Source: Heterotrichella gracilis
Lineage: Eukaryota; Sar; Xanthophyceae; Tribonematales; Xanthonemataceae
Assembly: GCA_032358255.1 (NCBI GenBank)
Contig: JAULBX010032367.1
Location: 1 to 64,000 of the forward strand
Direction: 5' to 3'
DNA: 64,000 nucleotides
Part shown: one piece after another, positions 5,983-47,000 of the stretch
How positions within the stretch are numbered: position 1 is the stretch's first letter
Layout: every line of letters starts with the position of its first letter
Notes under the pieces: model-generated
What the model was told of the DNA's origin: nothing
The model's input: the letters and a program-made list of their open reading frames with translations, nothing else
Databases searched by the model: none
Made by a program: the position numbers and the translations under genes

Positions 5983-7942
5983 CTATCGCTGACACACAAT
6001 GCGCTGCCGTGCATGCGCAAGCGCTGCAGGGCAGAAGTTATGCATGAAAGCGACAAAAAAGCTGCCGGGCACAAAGCACTCTGTGGTGGTACGCAGGCCA
6101 TGGTTGCTGTAATGCACCAACAATACCTCCCCGCTGGTCAACCCATCATACACCCCTTGATGGACACTGACATTCCCCCGGAACACCGCGCGCCCATCCT
6201 TCCAATGCACAGGGTTGGCATGCGCCAAGGGCACCACCCGAACCCCCTCGCACACCTCCCGCGGCAGCGTCCGGCCTCCCAGGACCGGAAACACACTCCC
6301 CATGCCCAGCACACTCGTCAGTGGCAGGCCGGACCGGTGTTGGCCCCACATGGGCGCCCCCCTCCCCAGCAAATTGCATTTCTTGGCCACGCGGGTGACC
6401 AGCGCAGGCCCCACAGCGCCCCACACGGGATCCTCATAGTGGTTGAGGTAGTCGCGCATGGCAGCCTCCAAGAAGGGGTGGTGGGGCGTGAAGGCCAGCA
6501 TGTGGCCGTTGAGGGCGTGGCCGTGCTTCCAGTCGGGCTCCTGCTGGGGGATGGCGTTGGAGACCAGCGCCTGCAGATGGTGGGAACATGGTCTTAGGGT
6601 TTAGGGTTTAGGAATTAGGCTTTAGGGTTTGCATGCTTCCAGTCGGGCTCCTGCTGGGGGATGGCGTTGGAGACCAGCGCCTGTATTGCAGATGGTGGAG
6701 ACATTGTCTTAGGGTATAGGGTTCAGGGTCTGCATGCTTCCAGGAGGCCCTGCTGGGGAATGGAGACTAGAGCCTGCAGGCAATAGAAACTCTGAATGTA
6801 ATACCTACTCAGTCCGTCCTCAAACACGCGTATTGCTCAGGAATGGTATGTAGTGAAGCAGGGCTATTACCTTGCCCTTATGGTGGAAATTTTCATTATG
6901 TCCACTGCCATCAAAAACACTGGAAATGGTGCAATGGGGGCAAAACATTGCCATACATGGCAACATCCAATAACATGCACGACCTTTAGCACACAACACA
7001 GTGTCTAGTGGGTCCATAAGTCGACACATTTCCTACCGCTGGAAAACACTTCTGCCACAGCACAATGGCATCTGAAACAAGGCACTAAAAACGCACCAAC
7101 TTTGGACTGGTTGGCACTGCATCAGTATCCAAGTAGATGCCCCCTTGCTTGTACACCAGGGCCAACCGCAGTGCGTCTGACATCATCTGGGTGGGGTAGG
7201 CCATGTGGCGCCACAAGCCCGATGCGTACCAGCCCTCAAGGGGTGTACCGCGCAGTGCCTCCCCCGGATCAAGGGGGAGGAACTGCAGCTGTGCGCCTGG
7301 CGCAGTCTGGTTGAGCAGCCAGGAGCGTGCCTGCTTCAGGTCTGCACATGACAGCGTGGTGTGGGATTGAGTGGAGTGCTGATTTGCCAATTCTGGGTTG
7401 CTTGTGGGGCATCGAGAATGGGGTGGGTTGTGGAGAGCAGCTTTCCAAGGGCAAGGTAGCATGTGGGGCACCGCTGTGTTGTTCCTTTTAACAGTGAATG
7501 CACAAATGTATATGGATTCTTGTTCCTGGTAGTTGAAACACAGTGCGGAGAAGGATGCGGCCATCTGTTGCAATGCCATGGTCTCCGCAAGTCAAAACCC
7601 TAACCCTAACAACACCCTTCCTGGTGCAATGTGGCACCCACCTGAGGCCAGCTCGCTGCTCAGTTGCAGCACGTGTATCCTGATGGTGACGTTTGGCAGC
7701 AGCCTCAGCCCGCTCTCGACGCTGCACAGGCAGGCAGGGCAGTCCCTCACCCGGGGATAGTCCCACACCAAGTGCAGAAGGGTACCGTTGGGGTGGGAGA
7801 CAGCGCGCTGTGTCCCTTGGTCCTGGGATAGCTGCAACCTATCGCTAGTAAATGCATAAAAGCAGGCTAGGACAAGCGTGAGGAGCACTACCAGTGACCT
7901 TAACAGCCTCGTTACAGTGGTGGAGCGAGAGGGTGGCCTCAT
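5983..7942 (-). CDS. type II membrane glycosyltransferase, DXD family, copy B
   Basis: This is a tandem paralogue of the gene at 3032-4842 with the same three-exon structure and intron phases: 7942-7642, 7341-7097 and 6570-5983, about 377 residues. It has an N-terminal signal anchor (about residues 12-30) and the DTD motif at about 172-174. The C-terminal domain carries HPFLEAAMRDYL, VGPALVTRV and VHYSNHGL. Exon 2 differs from copy A at only two residues over 82, while exon 3 is far more diverged, with a segment around residue 240 that barely aligns. Both copies look functional. The intron before exon 3 carries two decayed copies of the start of exon 3. Its start codon faces the aminopeptidase gene across 555 bp. 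Confidence 0.88.
6631..6785 (-). repeat. two decayed copies of the exon 3 start inside intron 2 of copy B
   Basis: 6631-6700 repeats the block at 6523-6600 (first ~48 bases of exon 3, its acceptor and adjoining intron) almost base for base, with a 5-bp insertion just before the acceptor. 6732-6785 is a second, more degraded copy. The copies are separated from each other and from the exon by TTTAGGG-like runs at 6594-6630 and 6709-6730. Confidence 0.85.
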
Positions 7943-8497
7943 AGTTGTTGGCGTTGACGATGAGGTCTCATAAAAGAAACAAAAAGTAATGTGGCGGGTG
8001 CAGTAAAAACGAAGAGTAACAAAGGGTCAAGTCTGCAGGTGTGAACGGTTGCTCTGTCTCCTTGCTGCTGGAAGGAAGCTGTGAATGTAGCTGGGGCATG
8101 CGTGTGGCATGCACAAGACAAGTCCCGAGCTTGATCTTTTGGCAAAGTTTCAACCCCTCTAGATTGCGCACTGTCGACCGGGCAGGGGTGAAGCTAATAT
8201 GCCAATAGGATGACGAGGATTGGGCTGCGAAATAACTGAAGTTGGTTGTCTTGGACAGGCTCTCGCTACGACCACGCTGGCACTAGAGTTGACTTTAAAA
8301 GGCTTCTTTCCCAAACGCTTATGTAACGGGCTTTTATATCGTGGTGTTGATCAGCGGAGCAAAGTCTTCAAGTTGGTTTGGACTGGTATCGGTCATAAAC
8401 TCCCAGCAAGCAACGCGTTGCAACGGGGTAGTGTAGTTGGGCTGTTTCGTGCACGCCAGGCTCATACCAGCTTCCGGCTGCACTGGGCGGTGGAGCG
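7943..8497. promoter_or_regulatory. divergent intergenic region between glycosyltransferase B and the aminopeptidase
   Basis: These 555 bp separate two start codons that point away from each other, so both core promoters and 5' UTRs should lie here. I see no TATA box at a telling position and no gene. Confidence 0.4.
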
Positions 8498-11400
8498 ATG
8501 GGAGTCCAGACATTGAAAGATCCTTCCACGCTCTCCAACTGCGAAGACATCGTGGTGAAGCACGCCCACTATGGTAGGTCGGTTGCCATCAAGTAAATGC
8601 ATGCATGTGCAGATGCATGCAATCGAAATGGTGTTGCTGGCGCAAGTGGCAGCCCTCAAGTCGCACCTGTGTTTGATGGATTTGTTGTAATAATAGTGAT
8701 ATGTATGATCACGTGGGGCTAACGCTCGAGATACTCGAAATCAATGTCTCCATACTCGTCAACCCTATCTGACCAACATGCTCCGACACGCCCCTGCAGA
8801 GCTGGAGGTTGACTTTGGAAGCAATGTGATAGAGGGGTATGCCGAGGTGCGAACGCATACCGGGGTGTGGGACAACGCAGCCGCCCAAAGCGGTGCCTCC
8901 ACGTAATAAGTTGCACGTGCATCAGTTGATGGATTGCATCCCACTGAGACCAGCTATGTTATACCTCAGATGTGTGCCTCAATTGAGGTAGGCTGCATCC
9001 CACTGACACCATGTAGGTGTTAGACAGAGTGGCAAATATGTGGGGGAGCCTTGTGGGAAGGGATCGTGCATCTCAATAATGGCATGCCCTTGCCCTAGGG
9101 TGCGAGGCACACTGGACATGGGTGCATCCCAATCAGACACCAGGCGCTATATCATCTCAGGCTCAAGACACCAGCTGTATCCCGCACACCCTGTTCATAC
9201 CACCCTTGTCCACCTGCAGATGTTCGTCCTGCTTATGCAAAACCCTAAAAACCCTGGGCGCATCCAGCCAGGTATTACCAAAACAGCACCCACTATCCAC
9301 AGCTGGATCTAGAGGCGCTTGTAAATGGCGCCTCTGTCAGTAATGCAACTGATGAAGTTGCTTGGGATTTTAGTTACTTAAAACAAGTTCAATGATAGTA
9401 TAATAATATGTCTAATAATGACATTTATAATAGGAAACCACATATCCTGCAGCTGGAGCTGGAGGCGCTTGTGGATGGCGTGTCGGTGCTCCAGCTGGAC
9501 TCCAAGGCGCTCAAGATCCTGAGCGTGGTGTTTGTGACGGAGACCAAGGACCAGGAGATACAGTTCACACTCGATGAACCACACAAGGTACAGCCCCAAA
9601 TCCTGAATTACGATGCCAAGGACCGGGGACACATTTTCCACTTGATGACTGGTGCCTGATCAACAGCCTTGTACGCAACACTGCATTGGGTCGCATCACA
9701 TACATTTTACACCCTGAAATCATACACTTCAAACCCTCCCGCTCGCCCCCAGGTGTTGGGCACCCGCCTGACCCTGCACCTGCCCAGCACCCTAAACCCC
9801 TACCCAAAACCCAAACCCTAAACCCCCTCCCCCCCAGGTATTTGGCAGCCGCCTGACTCTGCACCTGCCCAGCACCCTGGCCAAGGGGGGTAGCGCCAAG
9901 GTTGGGGTGCACTTTGCGACCTCCCCTGAGAGCCAGGCGCTGCAGTTCCTATCCCCTGCACAAACAGCTGGGGAGAAGCACCCCTACCTGTTCACGCAGT
10001 GCCAGGCCATACATGCGCGCTCGCTGGTGCCATGCCAGGTGGGGACCGTAAACCCTAATGGTATACCCTGACCTTCAACCCTTACGCCCTACCTATTTTA
10101 CGCATTGCCAGGCAATCCACGGCCGCTCGCTGGTGCCATTGCAGGTGGGGTGACTACACCCTAAAGGTAGATCCTAGACCCTTGCCTTCAGCCTTAGAGC
10201 CCTACCTATTAATGCAGTGCCAGGGCATACGCGTGTGCTGGCTGGTGCCATGCCAGGTGGGACGGGGACATAAATCCCTTGGAATTCTGCATGCACTCGG
10301 GGTGTACGACGGGTGTTCAATGCGCAATTCCCTGTTTTTGGCTTTGTGCATGGGTCTGGTGTCCAGTTGCAACTGTTGCAGTGCAGGGCTGTACATGCAG
10401 GGCCACACGCCTCCATGTGCACACACCCCACCCAAACCCTAAAACCTTAAAACCCCGCCACCATAGCTCTGAACACCAACCTTCAACCCCAGTAACCCCA
10501 AGCAAAAAGGAATGTGTTGTTAGCAAGCAAGGGGAAAATGCTCAAATTATCATACATTGATAATCAGTGGTATCTAACCCCCCTAACCCCCTTCCAGGAC
10601 ACCCCCGGCATCAAGTCCACCTACTCTGCGGTGGTGCGCGTGCCCGCCCCCCTCACCGCCCTCATGAGCGCAATCAGCGTGCCGGAATTCAAATCCCGGG
10701 CGGACCTCAAGATGCCGCAGCGCATCCCAGGGCCCACACAGCTGTTCTACTTCCGCCAGGTGTGCTAAACCCTAGACCCTAAACCCTAAGCAGCAGCTGA
10801 CCTACATGTGCCATGCGGCACACTCCTTGCTGTGCCTCATCTACCTTAGCCAGCGCACCAGGTTGCAATTGTGTGTGTGAGTTGATCTGGTTGTTCCTTG
10901 TTATACATTCAATCATCAAACACCCACTCGTCAATCCATCCACCCACCCATTATACCAGTCATATGCAAGAAGTCACATTTAAATATCTGTTTTCGATAT
11001 CGCTCTTTCCAGGAGGTCCCCATCCCCTCGTACCTGCTTGCCCTAGCGGTGGGCGAGCTAGAGCGGCGCGACCTGGGGCCACGCACAGCGGTGTGGTCCG
11101 AGCCCAGCATGGTGGACTCGGGGGCTGCAGAGTTTGTGGACACACCGCAATTCCTGGAGATCGGTGAGGGGGGGGGGGGGGGTGGCCGGGGGGGGGGGGG
11201 TGGGGGGGGTCGTGCGGGTGGTGCAGGAAGGCAGTGGGTGTTCGTGTGGGCATGCTGTGCTCACTGCCCGAGATCGGGGTGGGGTGGTCATGCCAAATCA
11301 GGATGCGGAGACTAATGTATTTTTGTTTTCCCCTCAGCCAAAGAGCTGTCCCCTACAGGGGAATGGAAAACCTCCCAAGGGATGGAAAATCCCTGCAACA

Positions 11401-14400
11401 CATGTTCAGCCCAACAATTTGCATTGAATTTCACCTGTTTTATTCAATTTTGTCTCCCTCGCATTTGCCCCAAGCCGAGGATCTGGCTGGCCCCTACGTG
11501 TGGCAGCGCTACGACCTGCTGCAGCTGCCGCCACACTTCCCTTGCATGGAATCAACCCTGGTACTTCAAACAACAGAAATACAAGGCGCCACAAACTTGC
11601 CGTGCAACATGCAGACTGCCGTGTGTGGCAGAAACTAATGTAGTTTGTGTTTTCCCCTAGCTGAGGAGCTTGCTGGCCCCTATGTGTGGCAGCGCTACGA
11701 CCTACTGCTGCTGCCGCCCTCCTTCCCCTACGGGGGCATGGAGAACCCCTGCCTCACATTTGTAACGCCAACCCTGCTGGCTGGGGATCGGTCCCTGGTG
11801 GGCGTGGTGGCGCACGAGATCTCGCACAGTTGGACGGGAAACCTGGTGACAAACGCAAGCTGGGAGCACTTTTGGTTGAACGAAGGTGGGTGGCGCGGGG
11901 CAAAAGGGGGAGGAATATTAGTGGAATGCGGTGGGCAGGGCCGGAAAATGTTGTAAATTTGCCCTACTGGCGGGGGATAGGTCCCTGGTGGTACACGAGA
12001 TCTCGCACTCCTGGACGGGAAACCTGGTCACAAATGCAAGCTAAGAGCACTTTTGGTTGAACGAAGGTGGGTGGGGTGGGGCGAAATGGGGAGTATTGTT
12101 TGGTGGAATGGAGGTGGGCAGGGCCAAGAAATGTGATAATTACCCTACTGGCGGGCGGTGTACATGGTCTCGCACAGCTGGGCGGGACATTTGGTGGCAA
12201 AGTGAGCTGGGAACACTATTTGGCTGGGTGGGTGGGGTTGTGGGTGGATGATGGACAATGCAGGCTTTATCCTAGGGTTTTGGGAGCATGCATCCCAAAC
12301 CCCGAATCTCCAACCCGCGATGCAGGCATTGCCAAGCTCTCTGGGACTCGCGCAATATTTTTGCAAGATGTACCCTACACCCTAAACCCTAAACTCCATG
12401 TCATGAACTGTACACCCCACCATGCAGGCCTCCCAAGCCTCTTGGAGCGCAAGATCTCAAGGCCTAAACTTTAAACCCTAATCCCAGACCCTAATCCCCA
12501 CACCCCACCATGCAGGCTTCACCAGGCTCCTGGAGCGCAAGATCCTGTCCAAGATGTATGGCGAGCCAACCGCACAGCTGTCTATGGCAAGCGGATACCA
12601 GGACTTGATCGACGCGGTTCGCGGGTTTGGGGATACCCACAACTTCACGCGCATGGTGCCTGACCTGTCCAGCAGCGTGGATCCGGACGACGCCTTCAGC
12701 TCCATACCCTACGAGAAGGGTTTCTACTTCCTGTACCACCTCCAGGTGGGGGCGCCTTGCCAGGGTGGCTGCCATTCCATTTCAGCGGCATTGCCAGGGT
12801 AGAAGGTAGTCGCCATAGGAGCCATGCTGACACCTGATATGTTTAGGGTGTAGGGTTTAGGGTCTCGGCTAGCACGTGGTCACTCTGCCACTTTGAGATG
12901 CCACCCCCATTCTGGGTGCTCCACCCGGCTTCTACAAAGCCAATGGACTTGATTCAAGATGATAGCACCTATTCTACTACAACAAATTATATGGTGTCCT
13001 GGTGCGAGCCAGTGGCCCCCTAACTACGCCTCTGTGCGTTCCCTTTCTTTCTTTCTTTCTACCGTACACACCAAATACATAGAATATTCCCTAGTACCAA
13101 ATCCATAAAAATATCCCCTAACTTGCCTGCAGGACTTGGTGGGCGGCGCCTCCGTGTTTGACCCTTTCTTCAAGGCCTACTTGCAGCACTTTGCCTACAA
13201 GTGCGTCACCTCTGAGCAGTTCCAGGCCTTCTTCCTGGACCACTTCAGGGATGTGGCGGGGGTGGCGGACATCGACTGGGACATGTGGCTGCGGGCGCCA
13301 GGTGAGAGGGCCACATGCTTCTTGTGAGGGTGAGAGCTGCACCATATTTAGGGTTTTTTAGGGTTCAGACTTTAGTGTTCAGGGAATTGGGACATGTGGC
13401 TGCGGGCGCCAGGTGAGGGGCCCACATGCGTTTGGTGAGGGTGGGAGTTTAGGGTTTTTAGGGTTTAGGGGTTTGGGGCATGCGGCTGGGGGCGCCAGCT
13501 GAGCCGACCACATGGGTGCATGCAGTAGCACTCCCATCTTGTCAAGTGCGATGCTTGTATGCCATTTGATGGGTGATGGCCACCAGGGGGTGGGCGGTAA
13601 TCTGCGCACACGTGCAAGACCACCTGCAGGTTTGGTCCTTTTTCCTGGACTTCTCCAAGGCGCGCCAGTAGTAGCTGACACCGCCTAGTCCCTAATAATA
13701 TTGATAATGGTAACGCTGCTGATGACGGTTCTTTTCCTGTCACTAGGGATGCCCCCTGCTACCAACACCTATGACACCTCCCTGGCCGACGCCGCGTACG
13801 CCCTGGCAGCACAGTGGGCCTCACCCGATGAAAACGCCACCTCAGCCACCACCAGCAACGACATCGCCACGTGGCGCACACAGCAGGTGATGGTTGTTTG
13901 GGATTCATTTACATTCATCCAGGGTTTGGGGTTTAGGGTTTTTAACGACATCGCCACGTGGCGCACGCAGCAGGTGATCTAGGAGCCATGGTGTTGATGT
14001 TCAACGAATCACTGCATGGACTGCTATGAAGTGCCAGTGTCTTCGCTTCAGGAGCATCGACAATTGTGTCCTCATTTGGTTGGCCAACAAATATTTGCCG
14101 TTTTCCCCCTTTTTGTATGAAGAAAATAAAATTAAAGCGAGAAAGAAACTAAAAGCACAAGCATAATTGAAAAAAGGAAAATGCCACATGGCGCACACAG
14201 AAGGTGATGGCTTTCTGAGTTGTAACCTCCTGCAGGTGGTTGCCTTCCTTGAGAAGCTGTCTGCGCTGGCAGAGGATGTGGCGCTGACACCTGGCACCAC
14301 GCGGCGCATGGCTGACCTGTATGGCCTGGATGACAGCCAAAATGCAGAGATACGGCTGCGGTGGTACAAGTTGTGCATCGCGTCAGGTAGATACATAACA

Positions 14401-14956
14401 ATAATAATAACAAAAATGCAAATTATGGGGTTGAGCAACAGGACACGGAATACAGCAGGTGATTCCAACCCAGCCATTTTTACGAATGCCGGATATTTAA
14501 GGGGGTTGAGCAGGTACTCCTTGTGTTGGAGAGGGATATTTATGTCCAGTGCATACAGGGGATGACGCCCTTCTCTAGGGGGGTACAAACGCCCACTATT
14601 CTGTTCTGTTCTGTAACAACGCCACCACCATATGTGTTTTTTTGCAGGTGACGCCGCCATCCTGCTCAATGTCTTCCTTCCTCAAGCAGCAGGGAAATAA
14701 CACCACCAATATTCTGTTTAATTTCTGTCACAATACCAGCACCATGTGCTTTCCTGCAGGCGACGACGCGATCCTTCCCGAGGTGTCCTCCTTCCTCAAG
14801 GAGCAGGGCAGGATGAAGTTTGTGCGGCCGCTGTACCGCGCGCTGTACGGTTGCCATATGGGGCGGGACCTGGCCATCCAGACCTTCAAGGAGTGCAGGG
14901 ACTGCTACCACCCCATCGCGGCAAAGATGCTGGCGCAGGACCTGCACCTGGCGTGA
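8498..14956 (+). CDS. LTA4H: leukotriene-A4-hydrolase-like M1 zinc aminopeptidase
   Basis: Twelve exons: 8498-8573, 8800-8846, 9453-9587, 9838-10038, 10598-10759, 11013-11163, 11661-11885, 12516-12745, 13133-13301, 13747-13886, 14236-14386 and 14760-14956. They encode about 627 residues, close to the human enzyme (611). The beta-rich N-terminal domain is followed by the catalytic domain, with GGMEN at about 282-286, zinc ligands HEISH (309-313) and Glu332 in WLNEG, and PYEKGF. The helical C-terminal domain ends in the expected basic stretch ([12 protein letters not shown]). It should be a soluble zinc aminopeptidase; whether it also has epoxide hydrolase activity cannot be told. All key residues are present and intron phases agree throughout. 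Eight of its eleven introns hold degraded copies of neighbouring exon ends. Confidence 0.95.
9296..9340 (+). repeat. decayed copy of aminopeptidase exon 3 start
   Basis: This intron segment repeats the acceptor and first ~35 bases of exon 3 (9453 onward), including AGCTGGA and GGCGCTTGT. It lies about 155 bp upstream of the real exon. It is too degraded to code. Confidence 0.75.
9745..9792 (+). repeat. decayed copy of aminopeptidase exon 4 start
   Basis: The acceptor CCCCCAGGT and about 40 following bases duplicate the beginning of exon 4 (9838 onward). The copy stops where CCCTAAACCCC units begin, and these fill the gap to the real exon. Confidence 0.85.
10079..10265 (+). repeat. two decayed copies of aminopeptidase exon 4 end with donor
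   Basis: 10079-10150 and 10197-10265 each repeat the last ~65 bases of exon 4 with its CAGGTGGG donor. CCCTAA-type units and unique sequence lie between them. A third, barely recognisable copy may lie near 10355-10400. Confidence 0.85.
11166..11212 (+). repeat. G-tract just downstream of a splice donor
   Basis: Two runs of 12 or more guanines and shorter ones start three bases after the exon 6 donor GT. The tract could fold into a G-quadruplex on the non-template strand and in the RNA. It may also be unstable in cloning or assembly. Confidence 0.8.
11308..11560 (+). repeat. two decayed copies of aminopeptidase exon 7 start
   Basis: 11308-11355 repeats the acceptor region, including its upstream ACTAATGTA and TTTTCCCCTCAG. 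11472-11555 repeats about 80 bases of exon 7 coding for [11 protein letters not shown] but breaks off before the GGMEN motif. Neither copy can replace exon 7 (11661-11885). Confidence 0.88.
11966..12245 (+). repeat. two further tandem units of aminopeptidase exon 7 end plus donor
   Basis: The 3' part of exon 7 (from about 11784) and roughly 90 bp of following intron are repeated at about 11966-12140 and again, more degraded, at about 12141-12245. Unit 2 keeps the exon and donor almost intact but has TAA in place of the Trp codon before the final Glu. Unit 3 is shorter and lacks a usable frame. Confidence 0.9.
12290..12470 (+). repeat. two decayed copies of aminopeptidase exon 8 start
   Basis: Copies at about 12295-12365 and 12411-12470 repeat the ATGCAG acceptor and the first ~35 bases of exon 8 (12516 onward). 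Both run straight into CCCTAAACCCTAAA-type units. Confidence 0.85.
13386..13510 (+). repeat. two decayed copies of aminopeptidase exon 9 end with donor
   Basis: 13386-13440 repeats the last ~35 bases of exon 9, its GGTGAG donor and the following intron bases. 13477-13510 is a shorter copy. TTTAGGG-like units separate exon 9, copy 1 and copy 2. Confidence 0.88.
13944..14215 (+). repeat. two decayed copies of aminopeptidase exon 10 end with donor
   Basis: 13944-13980 and 14179-14212 repeat the last 30-35 bases of exon 10 and its CAGGTGAT donor. The first copy follows GGTTTGGGGTTTAGGG. Confidence 0.85.
14615..14690 (+). repeat. decayed copy of aminopeptidase exon 12 start
   Basis: The segment repeats the acceptor region (CACCACCATATGTG, TTTGCAG) and about 45 bases of the start of exon 12 (14760 onward), including CTTCCTCAAG. 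The pattern then resumes with the real acceptor. Confidence 0.8.
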
Positions 14957-15853: not shown

Positions 15854-18800
15854 TCACTCCTTCTCAAACAGGTACAGGATGGCGATGAGCACATACGTGG
15901 CGATCAGCTGCACCCCCATCAGCCAATTAGAGTTCCCATCCGAGGACACAAAGTGCGCGTGGATGACTGACAGCGTGAGCAACAATGTGGCCACGGGGTC
16001 GAAATTGAGCAAGAAGGTGTGGCCCGTGGCCCAGCCCACCACCACCACAAAGGGTATGACGAAGATAGCGATCTGGATGGATGAGCCCAGGGCGACCCCG
16101 ATGGCGAGGTCCATCTTGTTCTTTGCCGCCACAAACACCGCGGTGATGTGCTCGCAGGCGTTGCCGGCGATGGGCAGGATGATGAGCCCCAAAAAGGCCT
16201 CGTTCAGGCCCGTCTGCTTGCTCACCTCCTCGATGGCGCCGGTCAGGTACCTGAGGGTGGTGGGTGGGTGGGTGTCCAGGCGGTGGTGGAGTGCACTTAC
16301 ATGAGCATGGATACAGGATCCCACCAGGGTAGCCTCGAGTCTAGGTAGAGAATGTACATGTACTCTGAACACCATGTACTCTGAACACACCGCCATGACC
16401 CCCCACCCCCACCATGCGCTCTGGGCACACCGCCACCAACACCACCTCACGCACTCTTGAGCACCCCACCACCACCACCACACGTGCCACCATCGACAAC
16501 ACCACACAACCACAACCATTGCTACATGTACGTGAGCACACCGCTGCCGTTAGCACCACCACATGCATTCCCAGCACCCCCATCCCCACCACCCCACTCA
16601 CTCTGAGCACACCGCCACCACCATGGTGATCCCCAGCAGCATGGCCATGGCCCCAGACAGCGACAGCACGGGGCTCTCAGCGTCGTCATCCCCTTGGAAC
16701 AGGTCAGCATGGGTCTTCAGCTGGAACAAAAGGTAGCACAGGTAGCTGCAGGGAGGAGGAGGGGAGGAAATGAGAAAAGGTGTGGTGGGGAAGTCGCGCA
16801 CATGTGGTTCCCGGGAGTGCCTTTGCCATGCCAAGCCAAGCCAATGACCAGCGCAATGTCAAACCAATATGCACTCAAAACGCACCCGGGTAAAGAAAAA
16901 GACAATGCAATGCACAAGGCGCATCCACTCCCGCTTGCCACCCACAGCATTTCGCTTCAGCCCACCCACTTTCCCCCACGTACACGATGATAAGCACAAT
17001 CGCTGTCCCATTGCTGATCTTCTCAAGCACCCCCGTGGAGATGGCCGCCGGCCCGTACAGCAGCGACGACGAGGAGGGTATGCAGATGCCTATGCAGGCC
17101 ATGAGCAGCAGGGATGAGGCCGCCTTGTTGGCCACCACGGAGAAGGACTGCTCCTTGTAGCGTGTGCCGCCGATCAGGAAGCAAAACCCTGTAGGGTTGG
17201 AGGGAGGGGTCAGGGTTTGAAAATGAAAAGCAGATCCCTGGGGGTGAGATGATCAACAGAGCCTTGTGCCGCTGATCAGAAAGCAGAAGCCTGTTGGGTA
17301 ATCGGGGGTGGGGGTGGAGGGCATGTGAGTAACCCCGATTCATTACAGGTGCAAGGGATGTAAGTATGGTGATTTTTTTACTGCTGCATGTGATGGGGTG
17401 ACATGCGCAGCAAATTCGTCACTGTGTGATGATGCGCAGGCATCCTGCAGCTACAGATGCCACAGGGCCTGCCTACACATCTGGTACACATGCCCCCAAG
17501 CCCCCCCCTTTCAACCAACCCTTGCGCCTCACCTAGCACCAGCAGCATGTTTGACAGGATGGACCCGATCAGCGATGTGGCCACCACTGTATTGAGACCC
17601 TTCTGCAGGGCAGCCAGCGACAGGATGAGCTCCACCACGTTGCCAAAGGTGGCGTTCAGCAGGCCGCCCACCACGTCACCAAAGCGCAGCGCCAGGTCCT
17701 CAGTCACCTCACCCAGGACCAGGGCCATGGGGATGAGGGCGAAGAAGTTCTGCGGGGAGGAAAGGGGTTGGGGTGGGAGGGGGGCAGGCGGGGTGGGGTG
17801 GCAGATGCATGAGTGTGCGTGTGGGGAGTTGGGGGGTTTGATCGTGCAATACGGGGTATGGTTCAGAAATTTCACTGTCAGTTGCTTTTCCAAGCTCCTG
17901 GGTCACCTCACCCAGAACCAGGGCGGCGGGGATGAGGGCGACAAAGGTCAGGAGAGAGGGGCATGGGGCGGGGCGTGGTGCAGGCGGGGATGTGTGGCGC
18001 ATGCATGGGGGTGTACAGGGCGTACAACAGCAAGCAGCTTGCACCCAACAGCAAGCAGGGCTCAGGTGCAGTGAACAAGACGTTTGTGAGTGCCCCGCAC
18101 ATGGTGAGCAGCCAGGAATGATTAATTATGCAGGCATGAAGTGATCGGCCAGGGGCCAGGGTGAATATCCACAGTTTGGGGTTGGGATGCGCACCGCAGA
18201 CGAGGCGGCCACTGGGTCTAGAGTTTAGAGTTTAGGGTTTGTGGTGCGCACCAGTGAGAACGTTGCCACCGGGTTCCACTTCATGATGCCTGCCGTGATG
18301 CCCAGCGGTATGCACACCAGCAGCAGGTTGAGTATGCTGCCAGTGAGCATGGACCACACGTGGCGCAGGTCAGAGGCAGGGGCAAACAGGCCTGCGGGGA
18401 CAGGGCACAGCAGGGGGCTGAGGTTGCTGTGGAGGGTTTAGGGTTTGGGATGCTGCCGGTGAGCGAGGACCACTTGTGGCGCAGGTCAGAGGCGGGGGCA
18501 AACAGGCCTGCGGGGGCAGGGCGGGAGCGGCAAAGGTGAGGATGCTTGTGGATGGCAGCGCGTTGATCTAGGTGTCACACCCTACGGGGTAATTATAGCC
18601 TGTGGCGATCTGGGTATAAGAGAGGGGGGAATCCATATCAAATTCCTAAGGGTGATTCAACACCATTTGGCGGGCTTGTAGAGGGAATACATAGAAAATG
18701 TGCTGCATGGATGGGGCTAGCGACGAGCAACGTGTCCCATCCAAGGCGCGTGCTGTGCTGAGTCATTGACCAGTAAGATCTGATTTGCACCTGGCGGCTC

Positions 18801-35648: not shown

Positions 35649-36061
35649 TGTAACCTCTGTGCTTGCTATGCCGTGCGTTACAAGGCCCTGTGCTGTTTGC
35701 TGCCAACGAATGCATACAAAAAAGCTTATAACATCGAGGCATCGTGGCTCAAAACCCTGTTTGCCCTCCCCGCATCTGGGCATTTTACCCCTTGTTGGAC
35801 ATCACCCATTGTCGTGGCCTTTTACGGTTTGCAAACAGCCTCCCTGCTCCATTTCTGCGGCAACACCGCTTGAGCAGGCGTAGATACTCCCAGCTATCAC
35901 GCAGGCTGTCTTGGCGGTGACAACAGATGCATATGTTACTGCCTTGACAATAAATCTGGGAGCGTGTGCTGCTCTGGGGGGAGAGGGAGCAAGGTATCTG
36001 GGGAGGCAGAGACCCCACCGCAGCTTGATTTTTGACACGTTACTGCGGCTGGGTGTGAACG
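35649..36061. promoter_or_regulatory. presumed bidirectional promoter of CYC1 and NDUFV1
   Basis: These 413 bp separate the start codons of two divergently transcribed respiratory-chain genes (complex III and complex I). No other gene fits between them, so a shared or overlapping promoter is likely. I see no repeat or diagnostic motif. Confidence 0.5.
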
Positions 36062-39000
36062 ATGTTGACCAGGGGCTCGAGGAAGGCTATAAGCCAGCTG
36101 AACTTCAGGTACTGTCAGGGGTGACCGAATGAAGGCTGCTCCAATGTTTCCTCAAGCCCTGTAGTAACCTTGTCGTTCCACGTGCTGCACCAGCTTGGCC
36201 AGAGCATACAGCACAGCCGGTGAGAGGACCACGTTTGGTGGGTTGAAGGATGATGACAGAATCTTTCAGAACATCTATGGCAAGCATGACATCTCTATCA
36301 AGGTGGGACTTGCGCTTGGGGTTCCGTGAATGCATGCATGGGCTCAGTTACCTCTTGCAAATGGCGTTATAATCTCAACAGTGCAATTGCTACCTTGGTA
36401 TGAGCCAGCTCTGCACAGTACTGTAGCCACTGGGTTGGGGACAAATATCTTGCTGACTGCCTTGGTGATCCATCTGTGTTTATTGTGCTGTGCATACAAG
36501 GCGTAGTGGTGTGTTGGGCTTATTGTCACTGGTCTTGTGCCCCACTGTAACTGGGCTTGTGGGAAGCAGGGTGCCATGGCGCGAGGGGACTGGTACCGCA
36601 CCAAGGACATTGTCACAAAGGGCACAGACTGGATTATCGACCAGATGAAGAAGTCTGGCCTGCGTGGACGCGGAGGCGCTGGGTTCCCTTCAGGCCTCAA
36701 GTGGAGCTTCATGCCAAAGGTATTTACATGCTGCACAATAGAACGGCTCTCACACCACTCTACCAGCGTTAGCCAAGTTATACAGTTATGCCAACCCCAT
36801 CCACCTACTGCACAGGCATCGGATGGCAGGCCCCCGTATCTACTTGCCAACGCCCACAACAAAATGGTCCATTGCCTTTTTCAAGCATAAACCAACTTGC
36901 ACAGGCCCATTGAATTGCATCCGTTGCACAGGTGTCAGATGGCAGGCCCTCGTACCTGGTGGTCAACGCCGACGAGTCAGAGCCCGGGACCTGCAAGGAC
37001 AGAGAGATCATGCGTCACGAGCCCCACAAGCTGGTGGAGGGGTGCCTGATTGCAGGCGTGGGCATGCGGGCACGGGCAGGCTACATCTACATCCGGTAAG
37101 GCGCACTCCTGCATGCTGAACCAGCCAATGAGCAGCCACTATCACTATTACATCTGTACTTCTGCACTTCTTGGGCAAGGTGGCGCGTATAGGCTACTGC
37201 ATGTGCTCATGGATTATCACCAGTGGCCTATCGACCTGGCCTATTCAACGCCAACAGTGGGATGTTTGTTGTGCCCTGTGTCACTGCCACCCTAGCCTAG
37301 GGTGCATTGCCACCTCAACTGTCGTCCTCTGTGGTGTGTCAAATGCCGGTGTTCTGCCCTGTCCGAATGTGGTCGCATGGTGCGCAGTGGCGAGTTCGTG
37401 AACGAGCGTATTGCCGTGGAGAAGGCGGTGCACGAGGCCTATGCCAAGGGCTTCCTGGGCAAGAACGCGTGCGGCAGCGGCTACGACTTCGACCTGTTTG
37501 TGCACTACGGGGCAGGAGCATACATCTGCGGTAAGCTAGCAGAGACGTGCTTATTGCCAGCCACCCCAACACCATGTTCTGCCACAATCCATGCCTTTCC
37601 ATACCACCGCCCTGCCTCACGCATCCATGCCACCGTTGGTCCCTCACACATGCCACCGCCCACCACTGCACCAGTGCAATGGCCTGAGTGAAAGCGCTGC
37701 TGGCTCACCCGCCCCACCCACCTTTCACTATTGATTCCCTGGAGGGGCAAACCATATCAAGGATATGCCGTCCCATTCGCACCAAACCTCGTAACCTTCC
37801 CACCGCATGGTGCACACCAGCCACAACTGCCCCGGCGCACTGGCACCTGGCCCATCCTCACAACTCCACCCAAACCCTTTAACCCTAAACCCTAAATCCA
37901 CACTCCACACCTCTGCCACAGGTGAGGAGACCGCCCTGATCGAATCCCTGGAGGGCAAGCAGGGCAAGCCCCGCCTCAAGCCCCCCTTCCCGGCCAACGT
38001 GGGCCTGTACGGCTGCCCATCCACCGTGACCAACGTGGAGACGGTGGCTGTGTCGCCCACCATCCTGCGCCGCGGCCCCGAGTGGTTCTCCGGCTTTGGC
38101 CGCAAGAACAACCACGGCACCAAGCTGTTCTGCATCAGCGGGCACGTGAACAAGCCGGTGACGGTGGAGGAGGAGATGTCCATCCCGCTCAGGTAGGGTT
38201 AAGGGTCTAGGCTTTAGGGTTTGGCTGGTGAGGGTTAGGAGGGTTTATGGTCGAGCAGGGTCATGGTGGAGGAGGAGATGTTTTCACCTCTCTGGTGGGG
38301 TTAATTTGTAGTGTTCACCTGGCGACGGTAGAGGAGGACATAGGGGAATGAGGGAGGGCAATCAAGCATGAGGCTGTTGAACATGTTGTCAGATATCCAT
38401 TGGTGCTTGGACCAAGGTGGGGACCTGCACATCCCTACATAGTAGTTGATGTTGGCTTGCGCATGGCATGGCATGGCACTGCCTGCCAAGTGAAGGATGG
38501 TTGGGGGGTTAGTTTGAGCTTGGCATGGCACGGTACCGTTTCGCCAATGGCTTTGGCAAGGGCATGCACATCAACTGGCAGGGTGACAGGGATGGGGATG
38601 ACGAACACCATGAGCTCTACATGACAGGATGCGCTCCGGTGATTCAATACAACGCACGTATTACCTGACCCATTAACCTGCACCTGCAAATTCTTCCAGC
38701 ACGCTTTGTCTTAGGTAAAAGGGTCTGGGTACCCAGGGCCACTCAAGATCGATTGAAAAAAATATGATTATATTAAGTTCAATATATTGCAAAGTATGTT
38801 ACAAGCAGGCTGGGGTAATCGTGAGGGTGAGTGCTATTCTAGCTGTAGCGCAGTAAGAGTGTTATAAGTAATAAGCCATGTCCAACATATTATCTATCGT
38901 ATGCATCGCACATGCAAGCTGTCAGCAGCTGATGCCAGGAGCCTCACCCTCCTGTTCCCATCTTTTCTCACGGCACTGTTTGAGCGTCATAAGCTCTAAA

Positions 39001-39766
39001 CCCTTGCCGCCGTGCTTACCCCGTGCCCCCTTTTCCGTAGGGAGCTGATCGAGCGCCACGCGGGCGGTGTGCGTGGTGGGTGGGACAATCTGCTGGCCAT
39101 CATCCCCGGGGGCTCCTCGGTCCCCATGCTGCCCCAGAGCGTGTGCGGGGAGGTGCTCATGGACTTTGACGCCCTCAAGGAGGTCCAGTCTGGGCTGGGC
39201 ACTGCGGCGGTCATCGTCATGGACAAGTCAACAGACGTCATCGACGCCATTGCACGGTGAGGGAGGGGATGGTGAGGGGTGGCATGCGGGGTTTAGGGTT
39301 TAGGGTTAAAAATGGGGTGTTCATGATTGGCGCGTGGTGCAACTTCATGGAAAAATAAATGCATATTATGTTCACGGAGTATATGAAAGTGAATGAAGAA
39401 GAGTATATTTGGGGTTGTATGATAAGTGTATGATAGTGTGTAGGTTTTTAAACTTCCGCAGACCTTCAACCAACTACCCCCACGCGCAGGTTGTCCTACT
39501 TCTACAAGCACGAGTCCTGCGGCCAGTGCACGCCCTGCCGCGAGGGCACCGGCTGGCTGTACGACATCATGGCGCGCATGAAGACCGGAGACGCGCGCCT
39601 GGAGGAGATTGACATGCTGTGGGAGCTGACCAAGCAGATAGAGGGCCACACCATCTGCGCGCTGGGCGACGCTGCGGCCTGGCCTGTGCAGGGCCTCATC
39701 CGCCACTTCCGGGGGGAGATGGAGGACAGGATCAACCAGTTCCCAGAGCAGCGCATCGCGGCGTGA
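36062..39766 (+). CDS. NDUFV1: NADH:ubiquinone oxidoreductase 51-kDa flavoprotein subunit (complex I)
   Basis: Eight exons: 36062-36108, 36194-36302, 36570-36719, 36932-37095, 37388-37530, 37922-38192, 39041-39256 and 39490-39766, about 458 residues. The short first exon encodes a classic mitochondrial presequence ([11 protein letters not shown]), with a likely cleavage at [18 protein letters not shown] (82-94) is the FMN/NADH-binding loop. CGQCTPC (Cys377, 380, 383) with Cys423 in GHTICALGD binds the N3 [4Fe-4S] cluster. The enzyme takes electrons from NADH at the tip of the complex I matrix arm. Several introns carry degraded copies of neighbouring exon ends. Confidence 0.97.
36808..36865 (+). 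repeat. decayed copy of NDUFV1 exon 4 start
   Basis: TGCACAGGCATCGGATGGCAGGC and the bases after it repeat the acceptor and first ~45 bases of exon 4 (36932 onward), about 120 bp upstream of it. Confidence 0.9.
37722..37765 (+). repeat. decayed copy from NDUFV1 exon 6 start
   Basis: TTGATTCCCTGGAGGGGCAAA matches the codons for ESLEGKQ in exon 6 (37940-37965). The acceptor is not preserved. Confidence 0.6.
38232..38345 (+). repeat. two decayed copies of NDUFV1 exon 6 end with donor
   Basis: 38258-38303 repeats GTGGAGGAGGAGATG through a TGGTGGGGTT version of the donor. 38318-38345 is a shorter copy with GACGGTAGAGGAGG. TTTAGGGTTTGG lies between the real donor and copy 1. Confidence 0.85.
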
Positions 39767-40969: not shown

Positions 40970-43067
40970 TCAAGCCCCAGACACATGCTCAACCACACCC
41001 TCCTCCCTGCCTGCAGTCACCACCTTGGGCACACTGGCAGGCTCTACGCCGGGGCTAGTGATCACCTGCGCAGGGTGCGCAATGCGCGGCTGCTCACCCA
41101 CGTCCACAGGCTGAGCTGGCCCGCTGTCACCCGCAGCGCCCGCAGACTGGCCGGTAGCCCCGCCGCTGCTGTTGCCTTCGCCATTGGTCACAGCAGGCGG
41201 TTCATCCTGGGTGTTGCCTGTGGCAGGCAGCTGGCTCAGAGCCACATCACCCTGTGGCTGTTCGCCAGTTGGGGGAGCAGCGGTCTCGGGTCCACCTTCC
41301 TCTGCCATCTGGTTCAGCTTGTCCACTGCGTGCTGGAAAGGTGCACCAGCCTTCTTGCCGGCAAGGGACTCCTCCTGCACAGGCAGTATACAATTACAAT
41401 CTACAGTGAGGCGATCTAAGCCAACAACGCCCGGCGTATGATACTGTGGTAGAAGATAAGCAGGTAGTCCCTACAGCCTTGACCCCAAGGGCTTCCTCCT
41501 GCACGAGGTGCGAGGTAGGGTGCTTGTGTGCCAGAAATGTAACGCTGCAGAAGGGGTTTGACATGCTTGCTCACAACTTGCTAATCCACATGGACTACTA
41601 GACCCCTAAGGCCTCACAGATACCAACATTCTGCATACTAGCAATAGCTCAGCAACTGCTATGACACCCCGTACAGGGATTAAATGCACCACAAGGTATA
41701 ACACAGATTATTTGCAGTTTGAATTGCTTCAGACTACAGGGGAATGCCCGTTGCCACCTGCAAATTGCCAAACCATAAACCAGGTTTAAACCTATTAGTA
41801 ATACTAATGTGACAGGGTTATAGTAACCCTACACATGCGAGGATCTCACCAGGTTCTCAGATCCTCCTGGTCCATGCAGTGCAAAGGTGGCCATGGTGGA
41901 TGCCATGGCGCCCGCCTCATGCATCGCCTCCTGCACCGCCCCCACAATGCTGGCAGCCACAGGGATGCTTGCTTCCTTCTCACCCTCCCCTTTCCCCTCC
42001 TCCTTCCCCTCCTCCCCCTCCTCCCCCTCCTCGAGTGCCGCGCCACCCAGAACCTCCAGCGAGTGCAGTGCTGCCTGCAGAACCACAGCGTGGGGGTTAT
42101 ATAGCTAATATTAATCATTGTTACCATAAGTATTTTCTCGGCGTAACATGCCGCCATCTGGTCATCGGAAACCAGAAGGAAAAGCCAACACAATGTACCC
42201 AACAGTGAGGGAGGAGAATGTATCTTGGGGTGTGGCCGCGAACACAATTGCGTCACCCAATGCATGCCAACTGTAACGAGCAGTACCACACCCTGCAGGT
42301 CTAATCCGCACAGCCCAGTCCCTGCTACTAGTCACTGCATGGCTGGGTCACCTGTGCTGACACGTAACCATTAAACCCTAACCTCGAGGGTGATCACCCA
42401 CAAACCCTCCGCGTGGTATTGCTGCACCACCTAAACCCAAACCCTGAAACAATCAACTTTAGGGCCTCATAGAATCCATATCACCTGTGCCACATGCTGG
42501 GCCTGCTTGCCTGCTCCACCAGATGCCTGACCCTAAACCCTAGCCCCCTAACCTCCAAACCCTAAAACCTATTCCTGAGAGGTACTCAAGCGTGGCTGCA
42601 TCACCTGTGCTGCGTGCTGCGCTGCCTCCTTGGGCCGCTCGTGATTCTCCTCCACCAGATGCCTGCTACGCTCTGCAGCGTCATCTAGCACACGCATCAC
42701 GTCATCCTGGACGTAGGTGTCCCCAGGCGAGTGCTGCAGCATGGCAGCAGCCACTGATCCCAGCTTGGCCTCCTGGTCCACCTCGCCTGGTGAAGTGGTT
42801 AAGGTTGAGTGAAGGACAGTGACAAAGGGTTCAGCAGCGCAGTGTAACAGTGCGCTACAGTCTGGAGGTCAGGGCAGTGTGCTCATCTTATTCAAAGCCA
42901 AGGGATACTGAGTTGAGGCTTCCTGGTTGGTTGAACTAATGGGGTGGCAGCAAGCAGTCAGCCTCTAATGCCGTTCATGGGCACTGCGCCAAGCTGCTTC
43001 AGATGCACAACACACGCTCACCTGTGCCAGGCTTCTGCTGGCCCTCGCTACTGTGCACAACCTCCAT
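40970..43067 (-). CDS. unrecognised acidic hydrophilic protein
   Basis: Four exons with consistent phases, 43067-43022, 42786-42605, 42074-41850 and 41374-40970, give about 285 residues. I do not recognise a family. Exon 2 encodes a helical stretch rich in Glu, Arg and His (DDAAERSRHLVEENHE). Exon 3 has a Glu/Lys/Gly low-complexity run near residues 89-108, then an Ala/Met-rich helix (GAVQEAMHEAGAMASTM). Exon 4 starts with a further helix (FQHAVDKLNQMAEEG) and ends in about 110 residues rich in Pro, Gly, Ala and Thr, likely disordered. There is no signal peptide or membrane segment. The exon model rests on splice sites and open frames only. Degraded copies of exon ends in its introns support the boundaries of exons 2 and 4. 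Confidence 0.55.
41485..41515 (-). repeat. decayed copy of exon 4 start of the acidic protein gene
   Basis: CAAGGGCTTCCTCCTGCACGAG repeats the acceptor region of exon 4 (41360-41385), about 110 bp upstream of it in gene orientation. Confidence 0.6.
42335..42540 (-). repeat. decayed copies of exon 2 end of the acidic protein gene
   Basis: 42480-42532 repeats the last ~60 bases of exon 2 with its CACAGGTGAT donor, with an internal gap. A shorter donor copy lies near 42345-42365. CCCTAAACCC units fill 42375-42445 and 42532-42572. Confidence 0.75.
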
Positions 43068-44020: not shown

Positions 44021-47000
44021 ATGGCCGACCACTGGCGGACCGCCGCAGCAAAGCTTTCCAGCCTAAAACCAGCCACCAGCACTGTCACCAAGACCCTGTT
44101 GGACGTGGTGGTGCGTGGCGACACAGGTGCAGCAGAGTACCTACTCAGCGACACCACCCTCCCACCAGAGCGCAAAAACGTGGACGAGGCGCACCCCGAC
44201 AGTGGCCTGCGGCCCCTCCACTATGCTTCGGGCAAGCATGGGGATACCCGCCTGTGCGAGCTCTTGCTCAAGCACGGTGCAGACCCTAATGCGCAGACCC
44301 TACAAGGGCTGACACCGCTGCAGCTCACAGCCATGAAAGCCGGGTTTGGGGCAGCAATGCAGGTGCTGCTGAAGCACGGGGCAGATGTGAACGTGGCGTC
44401 AGGGCCGCATAGCCGCACCACGCTGCACCACTGCACCGAGGCCGCAGCCACCTCTGGTACCACAGCTGACCTGCTGCTGCTGCTGTCCAGCGGCAAGGTA
44501 GTTGTGGATGCCAAGGACGCGCGGGGGTTGACGCCGTTACACATAGCCGTCCAGATGGTACGCATTTGCAGCCACAGTCACAGTTTATACCTATGCAAAC
44601 ATACACACACATATAACACCGTGGCCCTCTTGACTAGGGGAAGTGTCATTGGAAACCCCAGGCAAACCACTTTGTCTATGTATGTGTCAAGTGCACTTGG
44701 TACATATTTGCAAGGGATGCATTGTCAGCAGTACCCTTGGATGGGTGCTATTTTGTACCTTCAACCTTAATCCCTTGTGCAGGGTGATTCCCGCTGCGTG
44801 CGCCTGCTGCTTGACCACAAGGCCAAGGTCAGCCTGCAGACCGAACAGGGCTGGCACGCGTTCCACTATGCTGCAGCACCCACAAAGTGAGTTGCCACAC
44901 AACTCGACAGTAGCACCGCCCTTATTGCCCATTAGATCAGCTGCATGTCTCACTGGGTTGACTGTGAATTGCTACATGGATATAGATGAAAGCACTAAGC
45001 ACGTCAACCTTTGCTGTGGTATTAAAACAAGCATTGCAAGAACTAATACTTTGTAAGGGCCTAAAAATCAATAACCAGCGTAATGCGTGTCCTTTGTGGG
45101 GAAATATAAAATTAGGCATAAATCCAAAAGTTTGCGACCATCATTTGTGCAATGGAACCCAATGGTACTAACCCCGTACGCAGGTACTCCCCTGCCGACA
45201 TCATGCGCGTGCTGGGCCTCCTGCTTGACCAGCCCGGCACCTACGGACTGTACGACTCCCCCGACCGCCAGGGCAAGACCCCCCTGCACCTGGCTGCTGA
45301 GCGGGGCCACGTGGAGGTGGTGCTGGAGCTCATGCGGCGCAGGGCAACGGTGGCGCAGGCGGACTGCAGGGGCTGGAACGCGTTCCACTACACGGTGTGC
45401 CCGCTGGAGAGGCCGGCGCAGGAGGTGGGTGTGGGTGGGGTGGGTGATGAGCAGTGGTGCCCATGCAGCAGCACTGCAAATTGTTGCAAACTATTTTGTT
45501 GTCATTCTCCTCGTAGCTTGGTGGACTTTGGCATGACATGGGATTCAAGCAGAATCAGCTGCAACACCAAGCCACATCCTGCACCTCAGGCTGTGCCATG
45601 CCTCCCCATGCCCTGGCAGCCACGTTAACACATTCCCCGCATTCACACAGGCCCAGCCATCCTCCTCCCAGCTCCCCCAGCCGCCCTTGCCCCTCTCCCT
45701 GGCCCCCCACATCTCCACCCTGGAGGTGCTCCTCATGCACAGCCTGGCCAGCCCCGCAGCCAGCACCTACAATGCGCGCGACTGCCAGGGCCGCACCCCG
45801 CTGCACATCGCAGCGGACCAGGGCCATGTTGAGCTGGTGATGCGCCTGCTGGAGGCACACTCAAACACATGGTGTGCGGAACCCTAACCTTAAACCTAAA
45901 CCCTAAACCTAACTCCCACGCATGCATGTAGTGCATAGGCAGGCTGGGTGGGGGCACAGTTTGCCAGGGGGATTGATGGGTGTGCCAAGCCAGATGTGCT
46001 ACAAGCAGCAGCGGTTCACTGTATTGTCTATTGATTGAGGTATAGGAAGACTGGTTTACATGTGCACATGGATGCATGTGCTGCATCGACCACATCTCCC
46101 GCTGGCATTGAATTTCAGAGGGGTCCTCTGCTATGCGCATTTATTTTTTTGTCATCTCAAATCAGCGTCAATTGATGAGCACCTGCAGGGTAACAGATCC
46201 ATTGTGCAGGGTAACAGACGTTGATGGGCTCACTGCCATTGATCTGGCCAAGCGCAATGGGCACACCCGCGTGGCTGCCCTCATCCAGCGGTACATGGCA
46301 CATCAGCAGAGGCCAATGGCTGGCACAGGGTAAGCTCAGCGTTGCTCACTGCGCACTGGTTGAAACGTAGGAGTTTGCATTGCATATCTAGGCTGCATGG
46401 GATGGGCAAGGCAGTCATTTCTGACAGAAAGGCCCCATCATGACAACAGCTTTGTGCATTCCACTTGATTGCCCAGCCTAAATGTCACATGTTGTAAACT
46501 ACAGCTTGTAATGCTGGCCTTCCTGTGCAGGACTGATGGCACAGCAGTTGATGGCATCACCATTGTCCCCCTCCCCGGCGACGACGGTCACCTGCTGTTG
46601 CCCCCTTTGCCCAGCTACCCGCGCAACAACTACGCAAGCGTGGAGCGGGAGGTCACACACTCCATCCCCATCAAGGGGGCGAATGCAAGGGGTTTATCAT
46701 ACTTAGACTCTGATGGCGCAAGCTCGCCCAGCTCCACCACAATGGCCTACTCCCCCACCAGCCAGGTCCCAGTCGCTGCACACCTGTGTGATGTGGCAGC
46801 ATCAAGTGGGGATAGGCAGCAGGCGGGCATGCCTTGGGCTCAGCATGACGCACATGAAGAGGCGGCTGCAGCCTGTGCCGCACTTCGGGTCCACAGTGGG
46901 AGGCTGCACTCGCCTAGGAGGCGCACCCTGGATGTGGGTTTGGGGCAGGCGCCACTGGGGAGCAATACACCCCCCTGCAAGTCACCTAAGGAAACCCAGT

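Follow-up and report, generated by a model that had tools for sequence, protein, structure and literature searches.

Introns in a 64-kb stretch of Heterotrichella gracilis DNA hold decayed copies of their own exon–intron junctions, often joined by telomere-type repeats

Genes and gene models in the window

The stretch analyzed here, hereafter the window, comprises 64 kb of eukaryotic DNA (positions 1–64,000 of contig JAULBX010032367.1 from Heterotrichella gracilis); all results refer to this one window. According to the reading frames and family searches, it carries intron-rich genes. Many introns of these genes contain decayed copies of the exon–intron junction at their own ends, and repeats of the plant telomere type lie in half of the joints between original and copy. 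We modelled 34 introns in six genes on the basis of GT-AG borders and continuous coding sequence, which gave 68 exon edges. These genes, together with one that was read by eye, are as follows.

2900–7906, minus strand: glycosyltransferases GT-A and GT-B, in tandem (Pfam Gb3_synth and Gly_transf_sug above cut-off)
8774–14955, plus strand: LTA4H-type M1 aminopeptidase (11 modelled exons; outer ends set by eye)
Minus strand: CAX-type exchanger (Pfam Na_Ca_ex)
Plus strand: SNF2 ATPase (family search)
Plus strand: NDUFV1 (264 amino acids in the modelled internal exons)
Minus strand: acidic-protein gene (read by eye; tested apart from the 34 introns)

The internal exons of the aminopeptidase gene encode 521 amino acids free of stops, and nothing was modelled 5' of its first modelled exon. 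For the 264 amino acids of NDUFV1, the best PDB matches were complex I subunits in 9f5x, 7ar7, and 7arc, which we take to be from green algae or plants. SNF2 intron 3 was excluded from all counts because the model lacks a donor for the exon at 25753; we attribute to this missing donor both the single stop in the SNF2 translation and the classification of the repeat pair 26118/26308 as exon-only.

Copies of exon–intron junctions in the adjacent introns

For each junction, 70 nt of exon were aligned to the adjacent intron, and a score of at least 18 was taken to indicate a copy. Decayed copies were detected in this way for 22 of the 68 exon edges, against 0.03 expected; this threshold was picked after the scores were known, and at a score of at least 15 there were 23 edges against 0.46 expected. 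When the adjacent intron was reverse-complemented, none of the 68 edges reached 18 (maximum 12.5), and the same edges compared with all other introns reached it in only one of 2,240 comparisons, which scored 22. The original prediction had stated that introns of several genes hold degraded copies of the neighboring exon ends, and had proposed the self-alignment of introns against their flanking exons as a check; within the window, the alignment indeed gave an excess over both the other-intron and the reverse-complement controls. It had also placed copies of exon starts upstream of the exon and copies of exon ends downstream. In agreement with this, when exon starts were aligned to the downstream intron and exon ends to the upstream intron (exons of at least 140 nt), none of 48 comparisons scored 15 or more (maximum 13.0). 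The junction copies are direct, local, and found on the predicted side only.

At least one copy was present in 18 of the 34 modelled introns, namely in 8 of 10 in the aminopeptidase gene, 4 of 5 in CAX, 2 of 5 in NDUFV1, 3 of 12 in SNF2, and the single intron of GT-B; the single intron of GT-A had none. The eight aminopeptidase introns with copies are as many as had been predicted, but the gene has 10 modelled introns rather than the 11 then counted, and copies in CAX, SNF2, NDUFV1, GT-B, and the acidic-protein gene had all been named correctly. In the last of these, the exon end scored 18.0 against its downstream intron, compared with 10.0 for the reverse complement and a maximum of 13.0 in the 34 other introns. 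Third and fourth copies suspected by eye in the same intron had no supporting score (second best 9.5). Introns with copies were longer, with a median length of 430.5 nt (n = 18) versus 261.5 nt (n = 16) for those without (P = 6.9e-5). The individual copies and the telomere-type tracts beside them are listed below.

6524–6593, minus strand: GT-B exon-start junction, original (exon begins at 6570)
6594–6630: telomere-type tract at the joint between GT-B original and copy
6634–6708, minus strand: GT-B junction copy (exon 47/47, intron 20/23)
Within 6725–6790, minus strand: GT-B partial older copy, farther upstream (26/29 to exon)
9290–9351, plus strand: aminopeptidase exon 2 start copy (original 9438–9497; telomere tract 9240–9255 outside the joint)
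9616–9648, plus strand: aminopeptidase exon 2 end copy (original 9544–9577)
9742–9788, plus strand: aminopeptidase exon 3 start copy (original 9827–9873; joint tract 9789–9825)
10087–10261, plus strand: aminopeptidase exon 3 end, two copies (original 9982–10043; tracts 10049–10058 before and 10158–10165 between them)
11464–11541, plus strand: aminopeptidase exon 6 start copy (original 11650–11727; weaker copy 11305–11347)
11997–12238, plus strand: aminopeptidase exon 6 end, two copies (unit of ~181 nt; joint without telomere tract)
12311–12456, plus strand: aminopeptidase exon 7 start, two copies (original 12500–12544; tracts 12379–12394 and 12463–12494)
13387–13517, plus strand: aminopeptidase exon 8 end, two copies (original 13277–13335; tracts 13347–13365 and 13447–13470)
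13944–13978, plus strand: aminopeptidase exon 9 end copy (original 13857–13891; joint tract 13921–13941; third copy 14174–14217)
14593–14694, plus strand: aminopeptidase exon 11 start copy (original 14706–14808)
16388–16441, minus strand: CAX intron 5, exon-end copy (original 16575–16623)
17265–17285, minus strand: CAX intron 3, exon-start copy (original 17163–17183; decayed telomere tract 17192–17218)
17893–18013, minus strand: CAX intron 2, exon-start copy (original 17694–17817)
18450–18551, minus strand: CAX intron 1, exon-start copy (original 18334–18432; joint tract 18433–18446)
24444–24574, plus strand: SNF2 intron 1, exon end, three copies (original 24344–24378; tracts 24379–24422, 24472–24487, and 24521–24533)
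24884–24951, plus strand: SNF2 intron 2, exon-end copy (original 24776–24843; joint tract 24859–24878)
25568–25639, plus strand: SNF2 intron 2, exon-start copy (original 25718–25793; joint of 78 nt, non-telomeric)
27422–27504, plus strand: SNF2 intron 6, exon-end copy (original 27212–27288)
27572–27630, plus strand: SNF2 intron 6, exon-start copy (original 27672–27731)
36809–36857, plus strand: NDUFV1 intron 1, exon-start copy (original 36925–36973)
38259–38281, plus strand: NDUFV1 intron 4, exon-end copy (original 38157–38179; joint tract 38194–38247)
42480–42529, minus strand: acidic-protein exon-end copy (exon ends at 42605; joint tract 42530–42566)

A self-BLAST independent of the gene models, with telomere repeats masked, gave the same picture: local pairs were 29 direct versus 3 inverted at a score of at least 22, and 17 versus 0 at a score of at least 30. 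Without masking, only one pair more than 5 kb apart was found at E ≤ 1e-4. Inside four modelled genes there were 25 direct pairs scoring at least 22, which are not independent of one another; 23 of them joined an exon edge to intron sequence, and the other two consisted of one pair between two copies of a junction and one at an SNF2 exon whose upstream intron is not listed. At a score of at least 18, two weak intron-internal pairs that do not involve copies of one junction also appeared (25049/25244 and 27878/28863).

Anatomy of the copies and the GT-A and GT-B paralogues

In the 22 events, the start of the copy lay 72–218 nt from the start of the original, and the aligned copies were 21–102 nt long. 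The splice site was crossed into intron sequence by 18 of the 22 alignments, as expected from the original description of copies that include the splice site and flanking intron, and 16 of these 18 junction-crossing copies kept the GT or AG. The gap between copy and original outside the aligned parts measured 11–156 nt; the one in aminopeptidase intron 3 contains another copy. Identity was higher in the exon part (823/938) than in the intron part (369/450; P = 0.005), which would be expected if selection holds one exon copy.

The tandem paralogues GT-A and GT-B, whose aligned blocks are 79–89% identical, allow one copy to be placed in time. The nearer GT-B copy matched its own exon at 56 of 60 positions and the GT-A exon at 48 of 60, and thus postdates the gene duplication. 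The intron is 526 nt long in GT-B and 297 nt in GT-A, and the difference of 229 nt corresponds to about two units of 110 nt. At the matching place in GT-A, there is a perfect telomere-type tract (3632–3651) without a recognizable copy; this arrangement would fit an old duplication that has lost its copy to decay as well as a tract that preceded any duplication. In the Pfam search, a clostridial-type glycosyltransferase domain also matched weakly, below the cut-off; in our reading, this reflects a common sugar-binding fold.

Telomere-type tracts at the joints and splice sites

Heptamers of the TTTAGGG family (TTTAGGG/CCCTAAA, the plant type) occurred 375 times in the window, whereas each of the 19 other permuted families occurred at most 93 times, and 41 tracts of this type contained at least three heptamer hits. 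The sequences flanking a tract aligned as direct repeats (score at least 16.5) in 18 of the 41 tracts; the reverse-complement control reached this score once in 41, and random positions did so in 9.3% of cases. Under a stricter definition, in which the copies abut the tract and exceed 99% of the cross-tract null, there were 14 of 41, from 10 loci, compared with 1 of 41 in the reverse complement, 0.9% across tracts, and 4% at random positions. The sole reverse-complement match belonged to the tract at 1004, within a family of near-repeats at 747–1342. By eye, the tracts look better preserved than the copies adjoining them.

Heptamers lay in the joint in 11 of the 22 events, whereas shifting each tract inside its intron gave an expectation of 4.7 (P = 0.00035). 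Nine of the 11 had no further heptamer within 170 nt past the outermost copy, as insertion at the joint predicts. Junction copies and telomere-type tracts thus overlap without being one feature, because half of the joints lack a heptamer and most tracts lack a flank duplication.

The tracts were also concentrated at splice sites. Among the 24 tracts in modelled introns, 16 lay within 50 nt of a splice site, against 6.3 expected, and none of 5,000 permutations reached 16. Since this clustering does not depend on the detection of copies, slow exon decay alone does not explain it. The remaining 17 tracts lie outside modelled introns; 11 of them were viewed by eye, and, with the splice sites sought in knowledge of the tract places, they lend weak support. 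Eight of these 11 had a likely splice site within ~50 nt (three in the 5' part of SNF2, two in the ACCA-type gene, and one each in the acidic-protein, ankyrin, and YchF-type genes), and the others were ~83 nt away in the ACCA gene and ~159 and ~223 nt from the donor in the acidic-protein intron. Only the tract at 42530 among the 11 adjoins a junction copy. The donors at 24378 (SNF2 intron 1) and 38193 (NDUFV1 intron 4) lead directly into the telomere-type repeat, GTAGGGTT, so that the splice site itself is partly telomere-like.

In the sense of the transcript, the tracts in the modelled genes were oriented: those nearest a 3' splice site read CCCTAAA in 10 of 10 cases, and those nearest a 5' splice site read TTTAGGG in 11 of 14 (P = 1.5e-4). 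Counting one tract per intron end gave 9:0 and 3:7 (P = 0.003), and adding tracts with two hits gave 12:1 and 5:11 (P = 0.002). However, the rule failed in nine further tracts viewed by eye, with two CCCTAAA and two TTTAGGG on the 3' side and three and two on the 5' side; pooled with the tracts of the modelled genes, the pattern still gave P = 0.004. The pattern may be local or due to chance, and we build nothing on orientation. CCCTAAA tracts were also considered as a source of CTRAY branch points; this was unsupported, as such motifs occurred in 3 of 8 introns with a 3' tract and in 5 of 26 others (P = 0.36).

Proposed origin of the junction copies

How introns lengthen is poorly resolved, as old events can no longer be read. 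In the introns described here, the exon provides a fixed reference for dating each copy, and the joint records the repair. The explanation that we favor, and hold to be somewhat better than an even guess, is that these introns grow by small tandem duplications at their junctions, through the repair of staggered breaks by fill-in and end joining, with a filler that is often telomeric. A break with long staggered ends, for example from offset nicks on opposite strands, would form near a splice junction; both overhangs would be filled in and joined, and the segment between the nicks would thereby be duplicated. Filler would enter the joint, often as telomere repeats that were either captured or put on the 3' end by telomerase, and further copies would come from later duplication of the array. 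The spare copy would then decay as intron sequence. A duplication straddling a junction would be tolerated, since the protein is kept intact by the outer splice site. The focus on junctions could mean either that breaks arise there, for example in connection with transcription or splicing, or that mainly events near junctions are retained. The original prediction, in which junctions are duplicated locally in tandem and then decay, was broadly correct: it agrees with the direct, local, and correctly sided copies and their better-kept exon parts, but it was incomplete in that the telomere-type tracts went unmentioned.

Several observations weigh against this explanation. No telomere heptamer occurred in 11 of the 22 joints, and in 27 of the 41 tracts, no anchored repeat of the flank exceeded the 99% null level; near-perfect tracts in GT-A (3632–3651) and NDUFV1 (39289–39307) lie beside splice sites without any recognizable flank duplication. 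In aminopeptidase introns 1, 2, and 6, heptamers occur past the outermost copy (at 35, 5, and 31 nt, respectively), in intron 1 without a joint tract, as a history in which the tract came first would give. Of the 18 introns with copies, 12 held a tract, as did 5 of the 16 copy-free introns, a difference that is not significant (P = 0.084). The distribution is patchy: SNF2 introns 7–13 (27881–30847) have neither a copy at a score of at least 18 nor a tract of at least two hits, whereas SNF2 introns 1 and 2 have both. With a uniform intron length of 250 nt, at which 40% of positions count as near a splice site, the evidence for clustering (16 of 24 tracts) becomes weaker (P = 0.0075). Finally, detection is biased toward exon-containing copies because exons decay slowly.

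A more far-reaching version is that breaks in this lineage concentrate at junctions, where repair brings in telomere-type repeats and duplicates sequence across the junction, such that the telomere machinery drives intron growth and seeds the surroundings of splice sites with telomere repeats; this is conceivable, although we regard it as doubtful. Should both the focus on junctions and the telomeric joints prove to be genome-wide, break repair, the telomere machinery, and splicing would be tied into one process that is testable in living algae.

Alternative explanations

The main rival reverses the order of events. Telomere-type repeats would have come to lie near splice sites first, by random insertion or because they were kept as a splicing aid, and their fragility would then have led to slippage or breakage that duplicated the junction. 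Tracts at splice sites without any detectable copy, the heptamers past the outermost copy in three events, and the patterned orientation in the six modelled genes (CCCTAAA 10:0 at the 3' end; 3 versus 11 TTTAGGG at the 5' end; P = 1.5e-4) are all in its favor, as is the finding, by eye, that near-perfect tracts often adjoin decayed copies; interstitial telomere repeats are also reported to promote rearrangement (PMC11626172). On the other hand, half of the duplications have no tract, 9 of the 11 joint-tract events lack a heptamer within 170 nt past the outermost copy, the orientation was not repeated in the nine further tracts, and CTRAY motifs, as given above, are not significantly commoner with a 3' tract. 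On this balance, we consider a tract-first history rather improbable. We give still less weight to ordinary intron decay, in which duplications fall at random, exonic ones are purged, those at edges are easier to recognize, and the tracts are unrelated simple repeats. Small tandem duplications are reported to be frequent in the human genome and have been inferred in plants (PMC8355091), the better preservation of the exon part is what a detection bias predicts, and both the two weak intron-internal pairs and the non-significant association of tracts and copies per intron agree with such decay. Yet the sole intron-internal pair scoring at least 22 is between two copies of one junction, and the clustering of tracts within 50 nt of splice sites, which holds at P = 0.0075 even with introns of 250 nt, is independent of copy detection. 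Ordinary decay is therefore unlikely.

Two further explanations concern the copies themselves. They might be functional decoys, retained since spare splice sites regulate splicing, and the GT or AG kept in 16 of 18 junction-crossing copies would suit this idea; however, alignment itself contributes to the match at the junction, identity of the copies is only 82–88% when intron and exon parts are each pooled, some have in-frame stops, and their number and position vary, with none in GT-A, which makes a decoy function very unlikely. Assemblers can create local near-repeats, but between copy and original the exon parts show 0–24% divergence, each joint has a different sequence, and the GT-B copy matches its own exon more closely than that of the paralogue; an assembly artefact is accordingly extremely unlikely.

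Comparison with known systems

The ingredients of the proposed process are each known from other organisms. When breaks with complementary 3' overhangs give rise to tandem duplications in mouse and human cells, CST and Pol alpha-primase, the fill-in machinery of telomeres, are required (PMC8355091). Such duplications at offset nicks or staggered breaks, like those ascribed to patch-mediated repair in plants (cited in the same source), resemble the present copies in being direct, local, and small and, through CST, in their link to telomeres; the 22 events, with spacings of 72–218 nt, and the 29:3 ratio of direct to inverted pairs have the same direct and near-adjacent form. Here, in contrast, nearly all pairs detected in the modelled genes involve an exon edge, half of the joints are telomeric, and the break itself is something that we infer.

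Short interstitial telomeric sequences inserted at double-strand breaks in mammals offer the second parallel, since they too are short internal tracts, some with duplicated flanks. Flank duplication was reported at 6 of 130 rodent and 4 of 25 primate loci (PMC2246262), and in the horse at 3 of 66 loci, with 2 more mixed loci showing deletion, addition, and duplication, ascribed to staggered breaks (PMC7215372). In humans, 31% of such tracts are intronic, which the authors considered compatible with random insertion (PMC7215372). In the window, this minority type with flank duplication accounts for 14 of 41 tracts (10 loci; control 1 of 41), the aligned copies are 21–102 nt long, and the tracts cluster at splice sites. 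As a further point of reference, the telomere repeat of Chlamydomonas reinhardtii is TTTTAGGG (PMC6549138).

Introners, or introner-like elements, likewise place repeated sequence within introns. In the window, what is repeated is the junction of the gene itself, and exon edges did not recur in other introns (1 of 2,240 comparisons at a score of at least 18), so that this class was rejected, as the original prediction had anticipated.

In the AGGT model, an intron is gained by tandem genomic duplication, its two ends being copies of one exonic site. The resemblance is that exon sequence and splice sites are duplicated in tandem, but here an existing intron is lengthened, and the gain of an intron from an uninterrupted exon unit is ruled out by the 18 of 22 copies that carry the splice site and flanking intron. 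A case of tandem-duplication intron gain has been described in potato (PMC4974935). Direct repeats near intron borders, 4–30 bp long (mean 11.4) and paired near both borders, have also been described (PMC11782384); they share the location at intron/exon borders, whereas the present copies are mostly longer and lie inside the intron.

The claim that no named class fits these copies held in part. Their anatomy is covered by tandem duplication at offset nicks (PMC8355091) together with telomere insertion at breaks (PMC2246262, PMC7215372), but the focus on junctions and the large proportion of joints with telomere repeats are not covered by these sources in the portions available. The clustering at splice junctions, including that of tracts without copies, is the part that would surprise a specialist. 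Among the matches listed in the open-access literature, judged by titles and the starts of abstracts, there was no report of junction copies with telomeric joints, nor of duplications concentrated on junctions in this way. Relatives were also sought among viral contigs, and none were found there.

Other genes and repeats in the window

Family searches identified further genes with tracts nearby, namely an ankyrin-repeat gene, an ACCA-type carboxyltransferase gene, and a YchF-type GTPase gene. The ankyrin-repeat gene contains a direct repeat (45223–45325/45742–45842) that probably represents ordinary protein repeats. The near-repeats at 747–1342 form a small family of direct (747–802/904–962) and inverted (903–959/1278–1330) members, unlike the junction copies. 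Near the YchF-type GTPase gene, an overlapping inverted repeat of 71% identity occupies 54937–55037, and outside the gene models, two 30-bp units, 96% alike, stand in tandem at 60639–60698.

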